Positions 9,319-44,320 of a stretch of DNA of 56,574 nt are shown in pieces. Source of the DNA: a virus; IMG/VR virus record IMGVR_UViG_3300042731_005216, positions 1 to 56,574 of that record; one strand, 5' to 3'. Position 1 is the stretch's first letter. Each line of letters opens with the position of its first letter. A program made the position numbers and the translations under genes. The notes beneath the pieces were generated by a model that worked only from the letters and a program-made list of their open reading frames with translations, made no database searches and was not told the origin of the DNA.

Positions 9319-12300
9319 CTATCTCCAGAATGCGCCACGAATGCGGCTGTAGACGTGCTGAGCATTGGCTGCGAAGGTGTCGTCCAGGTTCCCGCCGCCA
9401 GCATCGCGATAGAGTGCGAGCGCGAGGGAACCGTCTTGCTCCAGGTCGGGAACGGTGAATACAAACTGAGTCACCGCTAACGTGAAGGCTGTGAACGGGC
9501 CTGTGACAATCTGCGAGAGTTGTCGCGTATAGGGCAGCGTGCCGTCGAGAACGTCCCCCGCGTTGAGCGTCACCACGTCAAGCTGAAGCTCCACGTTGCC
9601 GGAGCCGCTGGCCTCGGGAGCCCAGCCGACCTCGTAGATGAGAGGGCGGCTCGTGTCCAATCCAGGCAACGCCTGAAGAGTCGTGACAGAACCATCCTTA
9701 TTCCCGTCCTGCCAACGATTCTGCAATGCTTTGATGCTAAGCCCGCTCGCGATGTCGATGGCGGAGTCCGGCTGCGCGAAGCCCTCCATCTCTTCCATCA
9801 GTCGGCGGTGCCACACGAGCTGACGATAGGGCTCGGCTGCGCCGAAGTGTTCCACGACACCGTCCGAATTGATCTCGGTGCGATTGGTGTGGAGCTTGAT
9901 GCGGTCGGCGGCGGGAGCCGTCGAGATGGCCGTTGTGATGCGGACCCGCACCCAATATTTCGTGATAGTGTTGAGCGTCTTCGTCGCCCATCCTGTGATG
10001 CCGTCCGTATTGAACCGAACCTGCTCGGTGCTCACCCGCTGAAACAGCCGTTGCGCATATTGCTGGTAAGGCGCGTCAGCATCGGCGCTGAGATGCTCGA
10101 TGCTGGTCCATGCCGAGCCGTTCCAATACTCCAAAACCACGGCCCCAGTACCTATGCCGAGCGCGGTGGTTATTTCGGGCTTGAGACCAGGGAATTCTTG
10201 ATCACCACCGATGTAGAAACAGTTCCCCGCGCCGACACCCGCAAAGAGCGCCGCCGAGGAGCCATCGTCGTCCTTGATAGCGGACGTGATATCGTTCCAC
10301 GTGCCTACTTCGAGGTTGGTGTTGGTGAGCGCAGCCATGCCACGAGTATGACTGTCGCCGCCTCCGAAGGCTGATTCCCGAGGGCGGTCTTCGCTGCCTA
10401 CGTGCAGCTCTGCTGTGATCTGGATCGCTTCGTCGCCGGGAACGACGGACGAATGCTGAACGGCTATTTCTGCACTCAGGTTGTAGTCTGTCTTGTCCTC
10501 GCGAAACACACCATTGGTGAGCGCGAAGACTGCATCCGTTGCCTCCACACGGACATGCGTTGTGAAGCCGGAATCGTCAACAACCCGAAGATAGGTCCCT
10601 GTGACAATACCTCCCGTGGACCCTATGTGAAGCCCCGTTGTGAAGTCGGTCATGGCAAGGCCATTGATACGACCACGGGCGGCGACACCGTTGACGAGCA
10701 TGGCTGTCACTCCATCCTCGACTTCGGTGTGCTCGACTTCGATGGAGTATCCGGCTCCGACACAACGCAATGCCGTCTCGCAGTCGTCAATGTAGCAATC
10801 CACGACCAGCAAGGCTCCCGTTGTTCCAGCAACGTCAATACCTATCCCACCAACGCCGCTAGCGTCACGGAAGGTTAGCCCTTGAATGAGCTGACCGCCG
10901 TTGGCCGAGCAAAGAGCCGCGGTTGCGGTAGAGGCGTCGATGATAGTCGCCTTCTTGCCTGCAAGGCCGATAAGACTGACGTGGTCGGGCAGCGTAAAGG
11001 GAGGCGTTGAATACTCCCCCGGAGCCACGATAATGGCCACAGGAGCCGCCGCGGTCGGAGTAAAGGCATTGGCTAGCGTGATGGCATCGGCGATGCTCGT
11101 TGCGTCCGCCCCTGCAGCCGTCTTGGCTACCAACACCGTGCGGTCGGGATCCCAGAATTTGGCTATGCCATGGACGTGGTCGCTGCGCGCGAAGCTCGTC
11201 GCCGAGCCCTCGTCGGCTGTGTCCCCGGGGTTGATGGTGGTTGGCGTGTCAGCCGTGATAGCGTGACGATGGTCGCTACGCGCGAAGCTCGTCGCCGAGC
11301 CCTCGTCTGACGTATCGTCGGGCTGAATCGTGCCCGCAGCAGCTGCCACGATGGCGTGCTGATGGTCGCTACGAGCGAAGCTAGTCGCCGAACCCGCGTC
11401 GGCCGAGTCATCGGGCTCGATGGTGCCGGGGGCCGCGAAGGCCGCGACGGAGTGTTGGTGATCTGCTCGAGCAAAGCTCGTTGAGGCGCCTTCGTCCGCG
11501 GTATCGCCAGGGGTGACAGCACCCGGCGTCGCAGCTGCGATGGCGTGCTGATGGTCGCTGCGCGCAAAGAGGCTGGCCGAGCCTGGAGCCGCAACGTCGT
11601 CGGGTCTAATGGTGCCCGGGGTCCCAAAACTCGAGACCGAGTGCTGATGGTCACTGCGAGAGAACGAGCTCGCTGAGCCCTCGTTCGGTGTCGCATCTGG
11701 GGTGACCGCCCCAGGGGCTTCGCACAGGATGCCATGGGTGTGATCGCTCCTGGCCAAGGTAGCAGCCGCACCATCGCTAGCAGAGGCATCAGGAACGATA
11801 TTCCCAGGAGTGCCCACAAGCACTCCGTGAGCGTGGTCCTTCCTAGAATACTCCAGGGAGGAGCCTGCAACGCCTGCGGAGGCGTCGACATCCTCTACCG
11901 TATCGCCGGGAGCAAGAGCAGCGGCCACCACGAGCCGAGGGTCGCTGTCGGTGACGTAGGGGTTTGCCCCACCTGGCGAGCCGTCTGTGCCGACTAGGGC
12001 TGCCTTCTGATTGGTCGTCGGAAAGCGGCCATCGTCACCCACCGCGACGTCTGCGGAGCCCGTGCCCACGTTCAGCCACCCCTGAACCACCTTGCCAAAG
12101 GTGTCCGCCTTGACCAGCTCATTGGCTCCAGGGGTCGCCGAACCGATCTCATCTGACCCACCGTCTTCGTGCGTGGCTCCGTGCGCCGTGGGCGCCCTTG
12201 CATCGGTAAGGCGGCTGTCGTCGTCGGTGACGTAGGGGTTGGCCCCAGAGGGGGTCCCTGTGCCTGCCAGGGCGGCCTTTTCGAGCGTTGTAGGGAGGCG

Positions 12301-15455: not shown

Positions 15456-17854
15456 TCGCTAAGGACCTCCATGAGCTTCTCGCCAGAGAGTCGCTCTACC
15501 ACCGCGATGAGCCGTTCCATATTGACCAGCTTGTGCTTTCCGTTCTTGTCGATTGAGTTGAAAATCCATTCGCCAGCCGCATTATGCGGGGAGAGCTGAG
15601 TCCGATTATTGGAGCCGTCTACTACCCACATCTCAACGGACGCGCCTCCTCCTTGCGTATACAGTGAAGTATTGCCGCTGATGCTAGGGTACACGCCAGG
15701 AGAGCCCTTGGAGAAAAGCTGTATGGCTGATTGATAGTTGGTCTGGCTAGTAGTTGAGTCACCTGCGCTCAGCAGAGTTAGGTTCGGTTCGCTTCTGAAC
15801 CAGAAGTACGTTGCATAACCGCTTCCGCTATCCAGAAGGCTTCCATTCCACAATAAGACGTCGGCATTACCCGTTCCATCGTTCCCAGCAGCCACGATAT
15901 TGAACTGAGAGTGCGCTTGGAGCCAGAGGTTGTCGCCGTTGCGCTGTATCCACGTTCGCAGGTTCGTGCCATTGGTGAACAGAATGCCGTCACCGGGGGC
16001 GGCAAAGCCAGTTCCTCCGAGCGTGATGCCGTCTGCGACGCGAATGCCGTCCGGTCGCACATAGAGCTCAGAGTTCTCTGCAATCGTGAAGACGATCTGA
16101 GTATTATTGACAAAGCGAATGTTATCTGCCGAGCCCCCCGTCACTGTTAGGCCGACGTACTCACAGTTTAGCAGGCTTGCCGCGGTGAGCGTGCCGAACG
16201 CCCCCGCCCCCGTAGTTTCGATGGTCCCGGAGCCAGCATCAAGCGAGAGACAGTCCACGTTTCCACTACTATCGACGGAGAACCCGGTCATGGTGATGGT
16301 GCCCATGGTCAGGTCGCCTGAGCCGTCGATATTGGTAGCACTCGCAAGGTTGTTGCTCTTCATATCGAGCTGAGCCGACGTGAACTCGTATTCTACGACC
16401 GTCGCTAGGGTTATTTTCATCGACGAGTTGTCAACCCAGCTTATGTAGTCGTTGATATCGAGTCCCATCGTAGTAGCTCGAAGGGCTCCTACTCCTATGA
16501 GGTCGTTGCCGTTCCAATCAGCTTCTGAGGCTAGGAAATCATACTCCAAGGTATTATTGATATGGAACTGGAGTGTGTTGGTCCCCGCGAACCATTGAAT
16601 CCAGGTCTTTGTGGCAGCAATCTCCGGGTTGAAGTAGACCCTCGCGCCTCCACAGAAGAGGTCACCTTCCAGGTAGATGTCATTCGTTGTCGGAGTCAAC
16701 GTCTCATCGCCAACCGCGAGCCCTCCCGTTATGACGACTCCGGAGGCATTCGCTTGCCATGCCTGGAGGCCTGCGATGGAGAAAACAAGGAGGTTCTCAG
16801 AGCGGTCATAGTAAAGCTTGTCTTCGTTTGCCCCACCGATATCGTCGAAGTAGATGGTCGGGTCATTGGAGACAATCTCTAGCCTGAAGTTAGCGTCACC
16901 GACTTGCGTGGTATTCGTTACTACATCGCCATCTGCATCGACGCTGAAGCCTGTCATGGTGATGGTGCCCATGGTCAGGTCCCCAGAGCCGTCGATTGTA
17001 GTCGCACCGCCGATAGCTCCAGCATTGGTGATTCCACCAGAGCTAGCATTCAGGCTCTTTGCCACGACGTCGCCATCAGCATCGACGCTGAAGCCCGTCA
17101 TGGTGATGGTGCCAACGGTCAAATCTCCAGAGCCGTCGATTGTAGTCGCACCACTGATAGCTCCAGCTTCTGTGATTCCACCGCTATTGATATCAAGGCT
17201 CTTGCAACTAACATCGCCATCGGCATCGACGCTGAAGCCTGTCATGGTGATGGTGCCCATGGTCAGGTCCCCAGAGCCGTCGATTGTAGTCGCACCGCCG
17301 ATAGCTCCAGCTTCTGTGATGCCACCGCTATTGATATCAAGGCTCTTGCAACTAACGTCGCCATCGGCATCGACGCTGAAGCCTGTCATGGTGATGGTGC
17401 CCATAGTCAGGTCACCAGAACCGTCTATGTTCGCCGCGCCGAGGAGGTTGTTTCCTTGCAGGTCCGCGCCGCTCGCGCTGAAGAGGTATTCAGCCGCGCC
17501 GCCTATGTAGAAGCGATACTGGTTCGTGGTCCGGTCGTAGTCGAACCAGTCGTTCGCAGCCTTGTCGAAGTAGACGCGAGGTACCCCGCCGACGAACTGA
17601 AGCACGTAGTCAGCGTCTCCGATTTCCAAAGGAAACACAGCCCGCAAAAAGTCGGCCGTCGCGCCGTCCTCCCAGCGCTCATCGACCCATTTCCACCACT
17701 CCCCGTTGAGCTTCGCTTTCCAGTTCTCATAGGAGGACGGTGGAATCTCCTCAAAAACCCACCCAGCGTTCTTTTTGGCCTCTGCGGGCTCAGTGACGTT
17801 CAGCGACGTGTCTGCCCACCTTGGTATACTTGTCGGCTTTGTGTAGGTCGCCAT
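15452..17854 (-). CDS. Second tail fibre protein with 48-residue repeats, 800 aa
   Basis: The N-terminal 100 residues should attach to the baseplate (YENWKAKLNGEWWKWVDERW near 43-62). Residues about 140-310 hold four tandem units of 48 aa with the core IDGSGDLTMGTITMTGFSV; a fifth copy of the core lies near residue 515. Beta-rich segments then continue. The last 35 residues (KHKLVNMERLIAVVERL...) form a helix like those in trimerising fibre tips. The protein is most likely a receptor-binding fibre distinct from the 1489-aa one. It starts 12 bases below the baseplate gene at 17866-18417. Confidence 0.8.
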   Translation of the reverse strand: MATYTKPTSIPRWADTSLNVTEPAEAKKNAGWVFEEIPPSSYENWKAKLNGEWWKWVDERWEDGATADFLRAVFPLEIGDADYVLQFVGGVPRVYFDKAANDWFDYDRTTNQYRFYIGGAAEYLFSASGADLQGNNLLGAANIDGSGDLTMGTITMTGFSVDADGDVSCKSLDINSGGITEAGAIGGATTIDGSGDLTMGTITMTGFSVDADGDVSCKSLDINSGGITEAGAISGATTIDGSGDLTVGTITMTGFSVDADGDVVAKSLNASSGGITNAGAIGGATTIDGSGDLTMGTITMTGFSVDADGDVVTNTTQVGDANFRLEIVSNDPTIYFDDIGGANEDKLYYDRSENLLVFSIAGLQAWQANASGVVITGGLAVGDETLTPTTNDIYLEGDLFCGGARVYFNPEIAATKTWIQWFAGTNTLQFHINNTLEYDFLASEADWNGNDLIGVGALRATTMGLDINDYISWVDNSSMKITLATVVEYEFTSAQLDMKSNNLASATNIDGSGDLTMGTITMTGFSVDSSGNVDCLSLDAGSGTIETTGAGAFGTLTAASLLNCEYVGLTVTGGSADNIRFVNNTQIVFTIAENSELYVRPDGIRVADGITLGGTGFAAPGDGILFTNGTNLRTWIQRNGDNLWLQAHSQFNIVAAGNDGTGNADVLLWNGSLLDSGSGYATYFWFRSEPNLTLLSAGDSTTSQTNYQSAIQLFSKGSPGVYPSISGNTSLYTQGGGASVEMWVVDGSNNRTQLSPHNAAGEWIFNSIDKNGKHKLVNMERLIAVVERLSGEKLMEVLSE
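16930..17420 (-). repeat. 144-bp direct repeats in the fibre gene
   Basis: Four near-identical 144-bp units encode the IDGSGDLTMGTITMTGF block. The nucleotide sequence is almost unchanged between units over long stretches (for example the plus-strand motif GTCATGGTGATGGTGCCCAT), implying recent duplication or gene conversion. A diverged fifth copy lies near 16260-16340. Confidence 0.88.
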
Positions 17855-37107: not shown

Positions 37108-38826
37108 TTAGCCTTCAACTCCTCGCTCATCACCGGGCTCAGTATCGTCGTCTACGTCGTCCTCGTCCCCGTCGTCCTCGTCCCCGTCGTCCTCGTCCTC
37201 GTCTTCATCGGAATCACGTTCGTCCCTAGCGTCAGGCTCTCCAGTAGCGGGTTCTCCGGGCGGCTTCGCTTGAGGTTCAGGAGCCTGCTCTTGCGGTAGG
37301 AAGCGTTGAGCATCAGCCTCCTCAACAGCCAATGCCGAAGCGAGGAGGGCAATGGCAGCCGGTCTATCGACCTGTCCGCTTTTGAGAGCAGCCGCAACCG
37401 TGAGTACTGTAGCGACCTGGTCACGGCTGAGTAGGCCATGGTCGCCTGCAAGCGATCCAGAACCAGGTAACGCAGCGGGATCGCCTTCGGGGAAGGGAAG
37501 CGCATCTTGATCCTCTGGGGGCTGAGGCAGGCTTGCCATCTCAAGCAGCTTGCGCTCAAGGGGTTTGCTCGGAGTGAGATTGCCACTGGCTGCGAGGGCT
37601 TGAACGTATTTGGCCACGAGGTCGAGATCAGGCCCCTCGATATCTCCATGGACGAGATACGGATCCAGCTCCACAGGCTTGCCATTGAGAGCTTGGCGTC
37701 TCCGTATCGCGAAGCGATTGAAGACGGACGCTATGACGTCCATGATGGTGCCTAGCGACGTCCCGAAGAGGTCAGTCATGTTCGAGGACAGCGCGAGGCT
37801 TCCAACCTTGTCCATGCCCATGACCAGGAATTGAGCTAGGAACAGCATCAGCATTCGCGTCTCGTAGCGCTTCACGATGCTGTTGGTGTCTATCATGCGA
37901 CGGCCGCCCGTGGTCATCAGCTTGAACTTGAACTGCGACGGCTTCCCCTCGGCTGTCATCTCAGACGGGACGAGTCCTCCCCAGCGTTCGTCCACGCGCA
38001 CCTGAGTGACGAAGCGCTCGAGGTATTGGCGCACAGCCACGTCGCCCGGCCGCGCGTCAGTCAGCAACAGCTCTGGCGGGACCTCCATGATAGGCATGCC
38101 TGTCAAGTCGCGCTCGATGCCTGTTGCCTCGAACTGCTGAATCCGCTTGAGGTAGTGGTAGGGTATGACAGCGGGCCGCAGCAGGGACTTGCCCTCGGGG
38201 TTGCCCTTGAAGACCTTGGTGCGGAATAGCAAGGCCTTCTCCATCGGGATGAAGATGTTTCCTTTGTTGAACGCCGAGGGGTCGTTCTGCGTCCAACCTA
38301 GCAGCCCTCCCTCGGTATCGTACTCCCAGCGTTGCAGTGTCTCCTGGCCCCGAATCTCAAACTTGCGCCAACCCCACTTTCCATCGTTGTATTGGCTGTT
38401 GGTGGTGGGGTCGTCCGTTTCGCCTTTGCGCAGCTTGTAGACGATCTCGAAGGGCGCGAACCCCGCCCAGAGCATTGACAGAGCCTCCGAGATGAAGTCC
38501 TCGAAAGTATGGCTCATGTCCTCCAACGCGCCCTCTGTCTCCTCGGCCTCGTCTTTGGCCGCGTCGGACTCATTAGCGGGCTCAACGCGCCATTCGACCT
38601 GGCGGATCAGCATCTCAATGACGTTCAACGCGGCCGCAATGATAGGTGAGTTGTCTATCATCTCGCGGTAGTAGCGAATCCCCTGCATCCCACGGAGCCG
38701 CGCAAGGAATTCTTCGTTGATATAGCCGCCAAACTGCTTCAGCCCCGTAGTGCCTAGAATGGCCTGCGGGTCCATCTCCTCGTCCGGCACGTCGAAGTTT
38801 ACGGTATTGTTGACATGAGCGACCAT
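37108..38826 (-). CDS. Portal protein, DUF935/Mu gp29-like, 572 aa
   Basis: Residues about 30-210 carry YREMIDNSPIIAAALNVIEMLIRQVEW and FISEALSMLWAGFAPFEIVYKLR, characteristic of the DUF935-type portal. ERFVTQVRVDERWGGLVPSEM and MLMLFLAQFLVMG follow. The portal is the dodecameric ring for DNA entry, where terminase and connector dock. The last 40 residues are an extreme Asp/Glu tail (DEDEDEDDGDEDDGDEDD) encoded by GTC/CTC-like triplets, reminiscent in codon pattern of the GTC repeats elsewhere. Stop and start are tightly spaced with the terminase gene. Confidence 0.88.
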   Translation of the reverse strand: MVAHVNNTVNFDVPDEEMDPQAILGTTGLKQFGGYINEEFLARLRGMQGIRYYREMIDNSPIIAAALNVIEMLIRQVEWRVEPANESDAAKDEAEETEGALEDMSHTFEDFISEALSMLWAGFAPFEIVYKLRKGETDDPTTNSQYNDGKWGWRKFEIRGQETLQRWEYDTEGGLLGWTQNDPSAFNKGNIFIPMEKALLFRTKVFKGNPEGKSLLRPAVIPYHYLKRIQQFEATGIERDLTGMPIMEVPPELLLTDARPGDVAVRQYLERFVTQVRVDERWGGLVPSEMTAEGKPSQFKFKLMTTGGRRMIDTNSIVKRYETRMLMLFLAQFLVMGMDKVGSLALSSNMTDLFGTSLGTIMDVIASVFNRFAIRRRQALNGKPVELDPYLVHGDIEGPDLDLVAKYVQALAASGNLTPSKPLERKLLEMASLPQPPEDQDALPFPEGDPAALPGSGSLAGDHGLLSRDQVATVLTVAAALKSGQVDRPAAIALLASALAVEEADAQRFLPQEQAPEPQAKPPGEPATGEPDARDERDSDEDEDEDDGDEDDGDEDDVDDDTEPGDERGVEG

Positions 38827-38827
38827 G

Positions 38828-40309
38828 TTACATGCTCCACGGGTTGGTCTGCGCGCCGACGTCGAGATTCAGCTGCAGCTTGGAGTAATCGGGGCGTCGC
38901 TTGTAGCGGCTCAGGGCCTGGGATAGCGTATCTACTTGGTCGTTGAATGCTGAGTTCGGGAAGGAAATCAGCTCGTCAACAAGGTCATCGGCCCACCGCT
39001 CGTCCGGGATGAGGACGTTGCCCGCCTCAATGAGAGGGGAGACTGAATGCAATCGAGCCTCCTTGGAGCCCTCGACTTGAACCGCTATGAGACCCGAGAT
39101 TTCAGCCTTGAGCGAGGAGATGACTGCGGGGCCGTTCGCCTTGTCCTCGACGAGGACGGCTGTGCATTGCGGGTAGCGGTCAGCCATCTTTCGGATTGTC
39201 GCGAGGGTCTTGGGGAAGTCCATTCGCTCGCGGTGCTGGTCGACCAGGTAGAAATCGGCTCCCTTGCGGCACCAGATTTGACCGCAGACGTAGCTGCCCT
39301 TCCGTGTTTCTTTGAACGTCAGGTCCCACGATTGTAGCCAGTTGTCGCATCCCTCGGGGAGGTGTCTATAGCGCCTCACCCAGCTACGCTGCACAATGCT
39401 CCCCTCTGGCGGGGCCGGGCGTTGCTGAAACAGCGCGTTCCAAAAGTAGCTGCCGTTGGCCTTGTTCTTTTCTAGAATCTCAAGCGGGAACTTGTCAGGC
39501 CATAGGGCCTCTCCCACGTCGCGAGGGTCGCGCGGGTCGCCATTCGGCTCGCAGACCGCTGGGAGCGAGATCACATGCCATTGATCTGAGGCCGGGTCCT
39601 CGGCCATCTGCTTCAACAGCCTGCCAGCCAGGTCGTCGTCGTGCCATCGGGTCAGCGTCACCAGGATGCAGGCGCGCTCGCCCTCAAGCCGGGTATAGAG
39701 CGTCGAGATGTACCAATCCCACACCTTGTCTCGCCACACCGTTGAGTAGGCATCGTCCTGGTTCTTGATGGGGTCATCAATGATGCCGAAGTCGGCCCCC
39801 ATACCCATGATCCCGCCCCCGACCCCAGCGCTACGGTACGAGCCGCGACGGCCCACGACCTCGAAAGTCGACGCGTTGCGCAACCACGTCCCCTGGGCCA
39901 CCGTCACCACGTTCTTGCTGTTCAGCGACGTACCCGGGAACACCTCCTGATAGGCCTCGGTATCCATGATGCGCTGAACGTCGCGGTTCATGCGAGATGC
40001 GAGGCTCGACGAGTACGAGGTGGCAATGATGCTGCAGTCGGGGTCCCGCCCGAGGAGGTAGGCGGGGAGGCAGCGCGAGACCAGCTCGCTCTTGCCGTGG
40101 CGGGGAGGCATGAAGACCATGAGCCGCTTGATAACGCGCTGGGCGAACTGGTCAAGCAGCTCGCATAGCAGCCGGTGATGCCAATTCGGCTGATAATGCG
40201 GTCGGGTGTAGACAGCGAAGTCGAGCATGCTGATCCGCGCGCGCGCCTTGACCTGTCGGTCCAGGAGCTCGTACAGCTCTCGAGTTTGCTCGAACGCCAC
40301 GCTACTCAT
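38828..40309 (-). CDS. Terminase large subunit (packaging ATPase-nuclease), 493 aa
   Basis: Walker A is PPRHGKS (residues 68-74) and Walker B is FGIIDDP (174-180). A motif III-like VTLTRWHDDDLAGRL follows near 226-240, and the C-terminal nuclease half has DLTFKETRKGSYVCGQI near 330, with Asp, and VLVEDKANGPAVI near 386, typical RNase H-fold acidic positions. It pumps DNA into the prohead and cuts the concatemer. It overlaps the small subunit gene by 3 codons. The packaging type (cos or pac) cannot be decided here. Confidence 0.9.
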   Translation of the reverse strand: MSSVAFEQTRELYELLDRQVKARARISMLDFAVYTRPHYQPNWHHRLLCELLDQFAQRVIKRLMVFMPPRHGKSELVSRCLPAYLLGRDPDCSIIATSYSSSLASRMNRDVQRIMDTEAYQEVFPGTSLNSKNVVTVAQGTWLRNASTFEVVGRRGSYRSAGVGGGIMGMGADFGIIDDPIKNQDDAYSTVWRDKVWDWYISTLYTRLEGERACILVTLTRWHDDDLAGRLLKQMAEDPASDQWHVISLPAVCEPNGDPRDPRDVGEALWPDKFPLEILEKNKANGSYFWNALFQQRPAPPEGSIVQRSWVRRYRHLPEGCDNWLQSWDLTFKETRKGSYVCGQIWCRKGADFYLVDQHRERMDFPKTLATIRKMADRYPQCTAVLVEDKANGPAVISSLKAEISGLIAVQVEGSKEARLHSVSPLIEAGNVLIPDERWADDLVDELISFPNSAFNDQVDTLSQALSRYKRRPDYSKLQLNLDVGAQTNPWSM

Positions 40310-40910
40310 TTGGCCTCGTCTTGAGAAGGTGCTGGATGCGAGCCTCCAACTCCTCTTGCGTCAAGCCCTTTTCCCTGTTCTCCGTTATGGACTCTGGTTC
40401 GTTTCTGTTCAAGCGTTCAAGCTTGATTGCGTAGTCGAGCAGATTCTGGATGTGAAGGGGAATGAGAACGGGCTCCGCTCGGAGGTCGGGGTTGTCCGTG
40501 TCTCCACCGACCTTGTGGATCCAGCGCATCAGCTCAATGGAGGCGAGTCGCTGAAGGTGAGTCGAGAGCTTCAGATGGCGCTCGACCATATCGCGCGACG
40601 CGGCCCTCCTAGCCTCTTGTTGCTCGGCCAGATTCAGCTCATCGTTGTGCGCGTCGAAAGCGGCCACGCGCTTGCGCCAGTAATGCAGCCTTGACCATTG
40701 CTCGATAGTTCCCCGATATCTTTGGTCTTTGCCAAGAAGGGCTGGCACTTTCGTCAACGACCGATGACTCGGCCCGAGGTCGCGATAGGCCACGAAAGCC
40801 GCATAGGACCTCTCGGTGTCGCACGGCTGCCGTTCCCACGCCTTGGTGCCAGGAGAGGGCATCCATTCAGCTTCGCCCGCAGGTCGCAGGCCGCTCCTGT
40901 TCCTTCCCAT
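40302..40910 (-). CDS. Terminase small subunit, 202 aa
   Basis: The segment TERSYAAFVAYRDLGPSHRSLTKVPALLG (starting near residue 33) is typical of one phage small-terminase group, with a DNA-binding helix-turn-helix near the N-terminus, and WSRLHYWRKRVAAFDAHNDELNLAEQQEARR downstream. It recognises the packaging site and regulates the large subunit. ATG 40910 is used; a TTG at 40916 overlapping the folE stop is the alternative. It directly follows the deazaguanine genes. Confidence 0.78.
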   Translation of the reverse strand: MGRNRSGLRPAGEAEWMPSPGTKAWERQPCDTERSYAAFVAYRDLGPSHRSLTKVPALLGKDQRYRGTIEQWSRLHYWRKRVAAFDAHNDELNLAEQQEARRAASRDMVERHLKLSTHLQRLASIELMRWIHKVGGDTDNPDLRAEPVLIPLHIQNLLDYAIKLERLNRNEPESITENREKGLTQEELEARIQHLLKTRPNE

Positions 40911-40912
40911 TC

Positions 40913-41473
40913 TCAAAGTCCAATCAATTCAAGGAACTCCGCGCGACACCGAGCTTCGTACATGGAGCCCAGCATAGCTGACGTGACCATTTTGGACGTT
41001 GGCTGACGGACCCCTCGGCAGCCCATGCAGGAATGGTGCGCTTCAACGATGACTCCGACGCCTTTCGGCTTGAGATGGAGCTGCATCGCCTCCGCAATCT
41101 CATTGGTCAGTCGCTCCTGAACCTGCAAGCGTCGCGCGTAGCAGGTCACCAATCGGGCCATCTTCGACAAGCCGACGACGCGCTCACCAGGCACGTAGCC
41201 GACGTGGGCGATCCCTTGAAACGGGAGCAGATGGTGCTCGCACAGGCTCACAAACTGAATCCCCTTGAGCAGCACTATCTGATTGTAGGTCACCTGGAAC
41301 GTGGTCGAGAGGATCTGTTCTGGGTCTTCCTTGTAGCCCGCTGTCATCTCCAAGAGCGCGCGGGTGACGCGCGCGGGGGTGTCGACAAGGCCGTCTCGCG
41401 AGCGGTCCTCTCCCATCATATCGAGCAGAGCCGCAACGGCCGCCTTGCCAGTGTCAAACTCAGGGCTGTTCAT
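40913..41473 (-). CDS. folE: GTP cyclohydrolase I (FolE), 186 aa
   Basis: This enzyme converts GTP to dihydroneopterin triphosphate, the first step to 7-deazaguanine bases. LCEHHLLPF (Cys78, His80, His81) and HSCMGCRG (Cys149, Cys152) contain the zinc and catalytic residues of the family, and the DTPARVTRAL and VVGLSKMARLV motifs are present. Length is normal for a single-domain enzyme. It is coupled to queE (overlap of 4 bases at 41470-41473) and to the small terminase. ATG 41473 is chosen over an upstream start at 41515, which lies inside queE. Confidence 0.92.
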   Translation of the reverse strand: MNSPEFDTGKAAVAALLDMMGEDRSRDGLVDTPARVTRALLEMTAGYKEDPEQILSTTFQVTYNQIVLLKGIQFVSLCEHHLLPFQGIAHVGYVPGERVVGLSKMARLVTCYARRLQVQERLTNEIAEAMQLHLKPKGVGVIVEAHHSCMGCRGVRQPTSKMVTSAMLGSMYEARCRAEFLELIGL

Positions 41474-42066
41474 CGGATCCCCCAAAGCTTGTGCTGTTGG
41501 AGAGACAGCCTCCAATCGGGGTTCTCTCTAACTAGCTTAATACACCATTGGATGGTTTCTGTGTCAAAAAGCGACCCATTCGCAGCTGGTGAGATGAGTT
41601 TGTGCTTCGCCTTGCAGGAGGGCTTTGGAATCCCCTGCCCGAGACCTCGGACATACTTCACTTCGCTGGCATTCAGCTGCTTGACCGCGTGCTCGGCCAC
41701 CTTGGGGCTGACAGTGATCCAGTCGAGATTGAGGCCGTTGACGTCGATGCTCCCATTGGTCTCGATTGCCACCCTGTAGCCTCGGATATGTAATAGCTGG
41801 ACGAGGGCCTCATCGGCCTGCAAGCCCGGCTCCCCGCCAGTCAGCACGACCCAGCGACAATCCCCGCCGACGCGCCGAATCTCATCGAGCACGTCCTGGT
41901 GAGACAGCTTGCGCTGGCTCAGAAACTCGGTATCGCAATCGAAGCCATTCTCAGTCTTGGTACAGCGCACATTGCAGCCGCTGAAACGAAGAAAGATCGA
42001 GGCTTCTCCAGCTCGCATCCCTTCGCCCTGCAGCGAGTAGAAAATCTCGTTGACGTAGTAGCTCAT
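41470..42066 (-). CDS. queE: 7-carboxy-7-deazaguanine synthase (QueE), 198 aa
   Basis: Radical-SAM enzyme that converts 6-carboxytetrahydropterin to 7-carboxy-7-deazaguanine. The motif EIFYSLQGEGMRAGEASIFLRFSGC (residues 7-31) and VVLTGGEP are diagnostic. The cluster cysteines are Cys31, Cys35 and Cys44, so the spacing is C-x3-C-x8-C rather than the usual CxxxCxxC; longer cluster loops are known in some QueE. VSPK near residue 132 also fits. Start ATG 42066 overlaps the queD stop. Confidence 0.9.
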   Translation of the reverse strand: MSYYVNEIFYSLQGEGMRAGEASIFLRFSGCNVRCTKTENGFDCDTEFLSQRKLSHQDVLDEIRRVGGDCRWVVLTGGEPGLQADEALVQLLHIRGYRVAIETNGSIDVNGLNLDWITVSPKVAEHAVKQLNASEVKYVRGLGQGIPKPSCKAKHKLISPAANGSLFDTETIQWCIKLVRENPDWRLSLQQHKLWGIR

Positions 42067-42506
42067 TCGGCCTCCGCGTAGCAATTTTCCGTCTCCCAAA
42101 GCCTCACTTTGACCACGCGCACGCCCGTCTCGCGCAGCACGTGTGGACAGACAACGGTCAGTAGGTAGTAGGCCATGTTTTCGGCCGTCGGGTTGTAGTC
42201 GAGCCGGAACAGCTTTTGGTCAGGTATCGTCTCTAGCGCGTCGCCTAGCTCGTTGTCCTCGTCCCAGATGATGAAGCCATGATCCCAGTGCTCATCTATC
42301 CAGCCCCCTATCGCGTCTTTTAGAACCGAGAAGTCGATGACTCTCCCCAGCTCATCAAGCCTCGTGTCTGTGTCGTAGCGCACAGCCGTAAACTGGGCCA
42401 CGTAGTTGTGGCCATGAGGGCTGTGGCACTTCGATTCGTGTTTGTAGACTCGATGGCCAGCGCAAAACTGGATACGTCGTGTGGCTGCAAGAGGCTTTAC
42501 GTGCAT
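42063..42506 (-). CDS. queD: 6-carboxytetrahydropterin synthase (QueD), 147 aa
   Basis: It converts dihydroneopterin triphosphate to 6-carboxy-5,6,7,8-tetrahydropterin. The zinc ligands His18, His31 and His33 and catalytic Cys27 are at the positions found in E. coli QueD (FCAGHRVY, SKCHSPHGHNY). GRVIDFSVLKDAI and DYNPTAENMAYYL complete the family pattern. Position between dpdA-like and queE genes and the 4-base overlaps show one coupled operon. Confidence 0.92.
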   Translation of the reverse strand: MHVKPLAATRRIQFCAGHRVYKHESKCHSPHGHNYVAQFTAVRYDTDTRLDELGRVIDFSVLKDAIGGWIDEHWDHGFIIWDEDNELGDALETIPDQKLFRLDYNPTAENMAYYLLTVVCPHVLRETGVRVVKVRLWETENCYAEAE

Positions 42507-43246
42507 CAGTCAAGCTCCTTCAAAATCTCTCCCCATAGGCCCCGAAGCTCATCCTCCAACTCGACGTAGTGCGCAACCTCAGCGCGGAGATCAAACTCGT
42601 TACCTCGGACAGAGAGCTGTTTTCGACCAAAAGCGTTCCAAAAGCCGAAACCCTTGGGTCTCAGCGACCATGCACTCGAGTCTGCTGAGTGCCATGGAAC
42701 GGCCATCAACCAACGTCTCGTAGTGAGGGCGAACGCATGAACCTTCTTCGGCCAGACGCGGGCGAAGCACTGTTCAAGCCACGCGATGCGAGCGTTTCCA
42801 CGGCCCATGCGAGCCATCCCGCCGATGGCGATCTTGGGGTAGTCGCGAGCCATCCCCACAAGAGCTTCCTGCGGCTCCCCAGCGTGGTAGCATGGGATGG
42901 CCTCAATTCCCATCTTCCACATCTGCTCAGTATTTTTCAACGACTGACGCCAGTCGTCGATAACGTCGAGCGCGTAGATTTCGGTCGGCGGGTTCGGGGA
43001 ATCAAGCAGCCGTTTACAGGTATCGACGTATTCATGGACGCTGATGTGAATCCCCTTGGTCATCACGCTATAGGCCCCGCTATCAAGCACCCAGTCGCGA
43101 TACTTCCACGTGCGGCCGTATCGCTCCAGCAGGTCAAGGTAGACGTAGGAGCACAGCAGAGCCGGTCGCTTCGTCGCGGTCAGCTTGGAGAACGTATCAA
43201 TCAAGACCCGTGGCGAGCCCCCTACCGCCAATCGGATGGTGGTCAT
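42506..43246 (-). CDS. DpdA-like DNA guanine transglycosylase, 246 aa
   Basis: The protein resembles the TGT-related DpdA proteins that swap guanine in DNA for a 7-deazaguanine base. Key segments are WVLDSGAYSVMTKG (Asp55), YALDVIDDW (Asp94, Asp97, Asp98) and AIGGMARMGRG near residue 140. The C-terminus has WSLRPKGFGFWNAFGRKQL. It is far shorter than bacterial DpdA, as in the phage-encoded subfamilies. Co-transcription with QueD, QueE and FolE and lack of tRNA-related genes support DNA as target. Substrate base is unknown because QueC is absent from the window. Confidence 0.75.
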   Translation of the reverse strand: MTTIRLAVGGSPRVLIDTFSKLTATKRPALLCSYVYLDLLERYGRTWKYRDWVLDSGAYSVMTKGIHISVHEYVDTCKRLLDSPNPPTEIYALDVIDDWRQSLKNTEQMWKMGIEAIPCYHAGEPQEALVGMARDYPKIAIGGMARMGRGNARIAWLEQCFARVWPKKVHAFALTTRRWLMAVPWHSADSSAWSLRPKGFGFWNAFGRKQLSVRGNEFDLRAEVAHYVELEDELRGLWGEILKELD

Positions 43247-43887
43247 TGCGGCCTCGCCGCGGGCCCATAGTGCTCCATGAAAGCATCACAGATCACTCGC
43301 AAGCACTCGCCGTCGTCCATGTCCCTCACTTCGTTGCGGACGCGGTTTGCAGCGAGGACAAACATCTCCGATTGGAACTCGGTGAGCTTGAGCGTCTTGC
43401 CAGGAGAAGGTGAGTCGGAGCCGTTTCCCTTGCTCTTGTCGAACTCGGAGAGGTCGCCAGCCATCGGCACGGGTTCCCATTTGGCTTTCAAAAGCGGCAG
43501 AAGCTCGTAGTCCTCCCATCCGATGGCCAAATCACTGAGTTTCCCGGTCTTCTCGAACTCCTTGAGCGACAGAGCCAATTTGCGGTAGTCCCATTCAGCG
43601 AGCTCTGCCGTGCGGTTCAGCGCGAGACCCAGCGCGCGGGCCCGTTCTTCGTCAATGTCCATCATGATAACGTCGGCCTCGGTCCAGCCAAGCTCCCTCA
43701 TGACGGTCAGGCGGCCATTCCCTCCAATCACCACGTTGTTGGCCTTGCGGACGACGAGCGGCTCTACCTGGCCAAACTCGCGGAGACTCGACCGGATGGC
43801 TTCTAGGTTGCGATCTCGGTGCAGGCGAGAGTTCTCCGGGTCCTCGACCAGCTCCGATAGGCTACGGCGTTCAATTCCATAGGTCAT
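43243..43887 (-). CDS. ParB-like nuclease/CTPase-domain protein, 214 aa
   Basis: The N-terminal 90 residues have the ParB pattern: RSLSELVEDPENSRLH, NLEAIRSSLREFGQVEPLVV and VIGGNGRLTVMRELGW. ParB-like domains on phages often accompany DNA-modifying enzymes. This gene overlaps the DpdA-like gene by 4 bases and leads the late operon, so it might guide or load the transglycosylase or act at packaging or segregation sites. The C-terminal part is unlike chromosome ParB and has no clear HTH. It heads the long leftward operon that runs to 7082. Confidence 0.78.
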   Translation of the reverse strand: MTYGIERRSLSELVEDPENSRLHRDRNLEAIRSSLREFGQVEPLVVRKANNVVIGGNGRLTVMRELGWTEADVIMMDIDEERARALGLALNRTAELAEWDYRKLALSLKEFEKTGKLSDLAIGWEDYELLPLLKAKWEPVPMAGDLSEFDKSKGNGSDSPSPGKTLKLTEFQSEMFVLAANRVRNEVRDMDDGECLRVICDAFMEHYGPAARPQ

Positions 43888-44320
43888 GGGCCCATTTAGC
43901 CCTTTGTGTCCGACGCAGTCAAGGCTATCCTGGACGCACCCGGACGTGCATACAACCAGGGGGCCCCCAGAGCCCGAAAACAGCCCGCGCTGAGCGACGC
44001 AGCGCGTCGAATTGGTGCAATAGGTCTATATCTTATTTTCTTATAGGGAATAAAGGAAGAAAGGCTTGTTATGGCGTGCTGCGTCAAATCTAACTGCCTT
44101 TGCTTCTTTTATTTTTAGGGAGAGGGTATATAGGGCTGTATGTATGCTATTCCGCGCTGGGGGAAACGGGCTCCCTGGATGCGTCAGCAGCAGTTTCCTG
44201 GCGTCTTGATGGGCGAAAAAACAAGCCTTGCCAGGGGTCATCGTCGTACCCTATAACATCGGCACAGCGACAGCACCGGGCATTGCGCCCTTTTCAGTCA
44301 AGCACGGAGCTGACAAAGCC
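43888..44320. promoter_or_regulatory. Divergent AT-rich control region between late and replication operons
   Basis: This 433-bp gene-free gap lies between two divergent operons and is the most AT-rich part of the window at about 44020-44160. Candidate rightward promoters are TTGTTA (44066-44071) with 17 bp to TCTAAC (44089-44094), and TATATA at 44127-44132. Leftward, TATAAG can be read near 44040-44046. The AT-rich tract could also serve as a DNA-unwinding element. No repeats of the GCGCACGTC family occur here. I see no credible gene. Confidence 0.5.

Follow-up and report, generated by a model that had tools for sequence, protein, structure and literature searches.

The window analyzed here (the whole 56,574-nucleotide viral record IMGVR_UViG_3300042731_005216) very probably carries a phage cassette that swaps some guanines, with DNA as the predicted substrate, for an altered guanine and so evades bacterial DNA-cutting enzymes. 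Because the gene for the usual last synthesis step is missing, an acid group probably remains on the altered base. We favor the reading that FolE, QueD, and QueE make 7-carboxy-7-deazaguanine (CDG), that a DpdA-like transglycosylase exchanges it for guanine in DNA, and that a ParB-like partner helps. The arrangement of the cassette is already known from Mycobacterium phage Bipper, which has no QueC and for which the CDG idea has been published (PMC6884629). What is new here, as read from sequence comparison, is the adjacency of ParB across a 77-member DpdA clade and the at least 12 changes in QueC presence within that clade. If the base is CDG, it would place a negatively charged, chemically addressable group in the DNA major groove, providing a simple path to restriction resistance together with a handle for further chemistry.

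Operon structure and precursor genes

The five cassette genes were located on the minus strand at positions 40913-43887, and the identities given to them in the original prediction were borne out by Pfam, PHROGs, and NCBIfam. They belong to one leftward operon (43887-40913, minus strand) in the order ParB-like, DpdA, QueD, QueE, and FolE, followed by genes for the terminase small subunit (terS, 40302..40916, minus strand, PHROG E 5.6e-18), the terminase large subunit (terL, 38828..40309, minus strand, PHROG E 1e-114), and a putative portal protein (37108..38826, minus strand). The last is an open reading frame named for its place as the first gene past TerL, which matches homologues in the loci L097 and L155 and in Bipper, where portal follows terminase. 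L155 is a second contig with the order QueD-QueE-FolE-TerS-TerL-portal, confirming this part of the arrangement, and is 100% identical to the window across QueD, FolE, TerS, TerL, and the initial portion of portal. In its queE (L155:464-1033, compared with window positions 41470-42066), an in-frame deletion of 27 bases takes out the residues GLNLDWITV.

The junction sequences contained ATGA at parB/dpdA, TGATG at dpdA/queD, and ATGA-type overlaps at queD/queE, queE/folE, and terS/terL. Consecutive genes overlap or are separated by gaps of a few bases, a layout that supports a single translationally coupled operon of cassette and terminase genes, with the cassette as its promoter-proximal part. 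The divergent intergenic region between this operon and the rightward replication genes (43888..44227) is the presumed promoter region, and a promoter scan of its 340 bases gave no strong sigma-70 match. Co-transcription with terminase and head genes had been taken to link modification to packaging; the shared operon was found, and a packaging link is not supported beyond this operon position. A cassette upstream of terminase also occurs in isolated actinophages, and many relatives carry the cassette elsewhere. Additionally, the tail-gene region of the window contains long tandem repeats (16926-17425 and 11173-11427, with 144- and 93-base units).

QueD (6-carboxytetrahydropterin synthase, 147 aa; 42063..42506, minus strand) matched PF01242 (E 7.7e-27) and has the CAGHR, KC, and HGHNY motif region. 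QueE (7-carboxy-7-deazaguanine synthase, 198 aa from ATG; 41470..42066, minus strand) matched the PHROG QueE family (E 1.1e-31), and alignments placed its radical-SAM cysteines at C31, C35, and C44; its best NCBIfam model was TIGR04508, at 141 bits, under the cut-off of that model. FolE (GTP cyclohydrolase I, 186 aa from ATG; 40913..41473, minus strand) matched PF01227 (E 4e-68) and scored 208.6 bits against TIGR00063 (cut-off 181.6). The ATGs at 42066 and 41473 are the most likely starts of QueE and FolE, respectively, as judged from the junction sequences; the TTG starts in the open reading frame list are located farther upstream. The pathway of FolE, QueD, and QueE stops at CDG (PMC13329287), which agrees with the product originally predicted.

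Absence of QueC and the identity of the base

A search for QueC (PF06508) over the entire 56.6 kb record found none, and the same search was positive in 12 of 14 control genomes, so the predicted lack of this gene held. The TGATG junction of DpdA and QueD (42506..42508, minus strand), which corresponds to the QueC slot of the syntenic L097, contains no QueC remnant. Profiles of slot-type proteins (methyltransferase, CN-hydrolase-like, QueD-like, glycosyltransferase, small H-R-H, and YhhQ-like proteins) gave no matches in the window, and the idea of a QueC substitute of these kinds elsewhere in it was rejected. The record is classed in IMG/VR as linear, with no completeness value, which leaves some chance of a QueC gene outside it. 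Both contig ends consist of the same (TCGCGCACG)n repeat array, so the contig is probably self-closing there, with little missing. Repeat arrays of the CGCGCACGTCGT type were located near or at the contig ends (1-175, 1420-1688, 54852-54973, and 56376-56574).

In a tree of 180 DpdAs, the window's copy belonged to a clade of 77 members (SH-aLRT 100), and a 9g-type clade comprised 65 members. QueC was present at the locus in 58 of 71 copies in the window's clade and missing in 13, and whole-record searches of the QueC-less relatives found none. The presence of QueC changed at least 12 times on the clade tree, a rough count that includes many weak inner branches, does not distinguish loss from gain, and leaves out L138/L209 and L190, in which a very divergent QueC-like ATPase is possible. 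These changes indicate that the absence of just this step recurs.

Bipper (KU728633) likewise has ParB-like, DpdA, QueD, QueE, and FolE genes followed by terminase and portal, in a genome without QueC, and Hutinet et al. (2019) suggested that its DNA could bear the QueC substrate CDG (PMC6884629). The preQ0 genes are all missing from its host genus, the mycobacteria (PMC6884629). With QueC missing from both the phage and its host genus, a cassette of this type is possible without any QueC. Bipper differs from the window in a 40-aa gene ahead of DpdA, a 141-aa protein in the QueC slot (gp4, weakly QueD-like, with H-x-H), and a longer DpdA (357 aa) on another branch of the tree. The end of the pathway at CDG and the precedent of Bipper point to CDG as the most likely base, and its main rival is preQ0 made by the host.

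For preQ0 to be the base, a host QueC would have to finish the pathway: the phage would raise the CDG supply, the host would convert CDG to preQ0, and DpdA would insert preQ0 or its amide. This course is rather unlikely, although it suits the 58 clade members that encode QueC in the slot, the full queuosine pathway of many hosts (PMC6884629), and the lack of any marking residue change in the DpdAs of QueC-less members. Hosts that have QueC will normally produce CDG too, so with a cassette covering three of the four steps the final one would be the bottleneck; moreover, QueC-less cassettes occur repeatedly in the clade, and the host genus of Bipper offers no QueC. Supply from a host QueC keeps some likelihood: searches for clues to the host of the window's phage found no near phage relative and no tRNA in the window, and a scan of bacterial genomes gave three loci, all distant. 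No DpdA residue convincingly separated QueC-bearing from QueC-less copies (best p 0.003 in 1,487 column tests), and thus the sequences give no sign of a changed base preference. The idea that CDG use is marked by a basic residue in the pocket loop of DpdA was rejected, as a similar loop occurs in the QueC-bearing L010 and the column tests brought no convincing signal.

A ParB-like partner of DpdA

The first gene of the operon (43243..43887, minus strand) encodes a ParB-like protein of 214 aa (PHROG ParB, E 1.5e-36) and, as had been noticed, overlaps the DpdA gene, by 4 nt (ATGA). The protein also matched the PHROG family "ParB domain of DNA methyltransferases" (E 8e-31), fell slightly under the Pfam cut-off for PF02195 (ParB_N), and had MTase_II as its best PADLOC model (E 4e-22, residues 5-134), and no DndB-type model matched it in Pfam, PHROGs, PADLOC, or NCBIfam. 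It is most closely related to ParB proteins of phages and to the ParB domain found in fusions with DNA methyltransferases. The predicted structure (pLDDT 88) has the ParB/sulfiredoxin (Srx) N-terminal fold and aligned with CTP/CDP-bound ParB structures (7bnr, Z 15.3, 2.5 Å, 136 residues). At the place of the GxRR-type nucleotide motif of ParB CTPases, the window's protein has GGNGR, and just 19 of the 32 relatives retain the arginine.

ParB was adjacent to DpdA in 65 of the 72 judged copies of the window's clade, compared with none of 62 in the 9g-type clade. The exceptions among the 72 were mostly second copies of tandem DpdAs or had ParB somewhat farther off. The two genes stood side by side in 118 of 121 loci having both (near-copies included), and this adjacency persisted while other cassette genes changed order. 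Gene neighborhood therefore supports the ParB-like gene as a real, clade-wide partner of window-type DpdA, and the mechanism lies beyond adjacency data. DpdB, a ParB-like ATPase, has been reported for insertion in bacterial dpd islands and is perhaps dispensable in some (PMC12839542), a dpdB homologue beside DpdA in mycobacteriophages was proposed in the CRB2 paper (PMC6392294), and ParB domains were noted in 2025 beside a phage cytosine-modifying enzyme, with a function not known there (PMC12783734). The association of ParB with phage DpdA has long been noted and we found no test of it in the literature; the clade-wide partnership permits a clean one.

ParB-like genes occur widely and in varied forms in phages (347 phage records matched), and the protein could serve partition or regulation as a mere neighbor of dpdA. 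We regard this as improbable, given its tie to one DpdA clade, an adjacency that outlasts the rearrangement of other genes, and the use of DpdB for insertion in bacterial dpd systems (PMC12839542). Of the targeting or loading factor proposed in the original prediction, the partnership with this type of DpdA stood, and bringing DpdA to its sites would be its probable role.

Bacterial dpd islands (DpdA, DpdB, and DpdC) similarly combine a transglycosylase and a ParB-like partner for inserting 7-deazaguanine into DNA (PMC12839542). Unlike these islands, the window has no DpdC or restriction gene among its annotated genes. Its ParB-like protein matched phage and methyltransferase ParB families and no DndB-type model among those searched.

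The DpdA-like transglycosylase

The putative DNA guanine transglycosylase (DpdA-like, 246 aa; 42506..43246, minus strand) matched the PHROG family "queuine tRNA-ribosyltransferase" (E 1.2e-33), and no family, those of tRNA-guanine transglycosylases (TGTs) included, matched it in Pfam (E 0.001) or NCBIfam (E 0.1). Searches of viral contigs with the single DpdA as query gave no matches, and alignment queries gave matches. A model was obtained with AlphaFold2 on a 60-sequence alignment (pLDDT 94.7), and all 50 of the 50 structural matches listed were TGTs, the best with Z 17.5 and 3.0 Å rmsd over 230 of 246 residues. An assignment as an aldolase or other barrel, suggested by the top Foldseek matches, was rejected after the structural aligner put TGTs first. 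Two aspartates, D55 (DSGAYS) and D189 (ADSSAW), were invariant in all 60 aligned sequences; on the basis of their motifs, we take them to be the general acid/base and the nucleophile of TGTs (D102 and D280). The C-terminal zinc site of TGTs (CxCxxC...H) is absent, since the protein has just four scattered cysteines, at 32, 77, 119, and 160. The protein is also short, with 58 residues past the nucleophile, compared with medians of 84 in DpdAs that have a ParB neighbor and 101 in DpdAs that lack one.

Both the transglycosylase fold and the residues for catalysis agree with the earlier proposal that this protein puts a deazaguanine into DNA, with DNA as the expected substrate. A role in boosting the queuosine of host tRNA, in which the DpdA-like protein would work on tRNA and not on DNA, is very improbable. 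FolE, QueD, and QueE are also used in the tRNA pathway, and the DpdA-like protein has the TGT fold, but that protein has neither a Pfam TGT match nor the zinc motif, clusters with phage DpdAs (deletion of dpdA in CAjan abolishes DNA modification; PMC6884629), keeps as its constant partner a ParB of the type fused to DNA methyltransferases, and would, as a tRNA enzyme, normally require preQ0 or preQ1.

DpdA pairs, in tandem or close together, were found in single cassettes of L009 (L009:6249-7729), L129, L161, and L196. In the L009 tandem, the ParB-adjacent copy resembles the window's DpdA less than the other does (34% vs 54%).

Proposed mechanism and comparison with known phages

According to the favored reading, GTP would be converted to CDG by FolE, QueD, and QueE, and the DpdA-like enzyme, as the DNA counterpart of TGT, would swap chosen guanines in replicated phage DNA, yielding 2'-deoxy-7-carboxy-7-deazaguanine (dCDG), a product expected to block restriction enzymes. 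The ParB-like partner probably binds DNA, a nucleotide, or both and would bring DpdA to its sites, in line with the insertion role reported for DpdB. Cui et al. reportedly found dCDG, the product predicted for the window, in phage DNA in 2023. The DpdA of 9g placed no detectable CDG in E. coli DNA (PMC6884629 Table 1).

Quesadilla (Mycobacterium phage) and Sour (Gordonia phage) also have ParB-like, DpdA, QueD, QueE, and FolE genes, overlapping and right before terminase, but they encode QueC, between DpdA and QueD. In the Mycobacterium phage Vic9 (B2), queuine tRNA-ribosyltransferase, QueC, QueD, QueE, and GTP cyclohydrolase have been described ahead of the structural genes. The Mycobacterium phage Rosebush, unlike the window, encodes QueC, and with DpdA and the full preQ0 set it contains dPreQ0 at ~28% of guanines (PMC6884629). 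The preQ0-type cassette of Rosebush and CAjan is thus distinguished by QueC, which the window does not encode.

Variation at the QueC position

The same operon occurs in L097, there with QueC placed between DpdA and QueD, and the terS, terL, and portal of L097 are homologous to those of the window (35-56% identity). No gene fills the slot in the window, L131/L182, L132, or L136, and it is almost empty in L145. Tentatively, the QueC position may be a swap site that sets the base chemistry: QueC would lead to preQ0, a SAM methyltransferase, CN-hydrolase-like, or QueD-like protein to different derivatives of CDG, and the lack of any slot gene, as in this phage, to the bare carboxylate, while a nucleotide-binding ParB would load the transglycosylase at chosen DNA sites. 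A modular slot of this kind hints at possible undescribed guanine modifications.

Various other genes were observed in QueC-less cassettes. A SAM methyltransferase occupies the slot in L009 (L009:7711-8535) and L098 (L098:1192-2004), where it might methylate the CDG carboxylate. A CN-hydrolase-like protein was found in the slot of L121 (L121:1471-2470) and L133 (L133:8726-9787), with a weak match (PF00795, E 0.0015 in L133). A small conserved H-x-H protein, weakly QueD-like, accompanies the QueC-less cassettes of L002 (L002:2047-2472), L117 (L117:5786-6202), and L144 (L144:8746-9201), Bipper (gp4) being among them, and lies in the slot in Bipper, L117, and L144. In a more distant QueC-less group (L157, L160, L161, L175-L177, L180, L195, L196, L220, and L221), the stretch between DpdA and QueD encodes a YhhQ-like membrane protein as well as a small H-R-H protein. 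Additionally, a GT4-type glycosyltransferase gene was identified inside the deazaguanine cassettes of L106 (L106:9383-10369) and L103 (L103:10178-11305), that of L106 being located outside the QueC slot.
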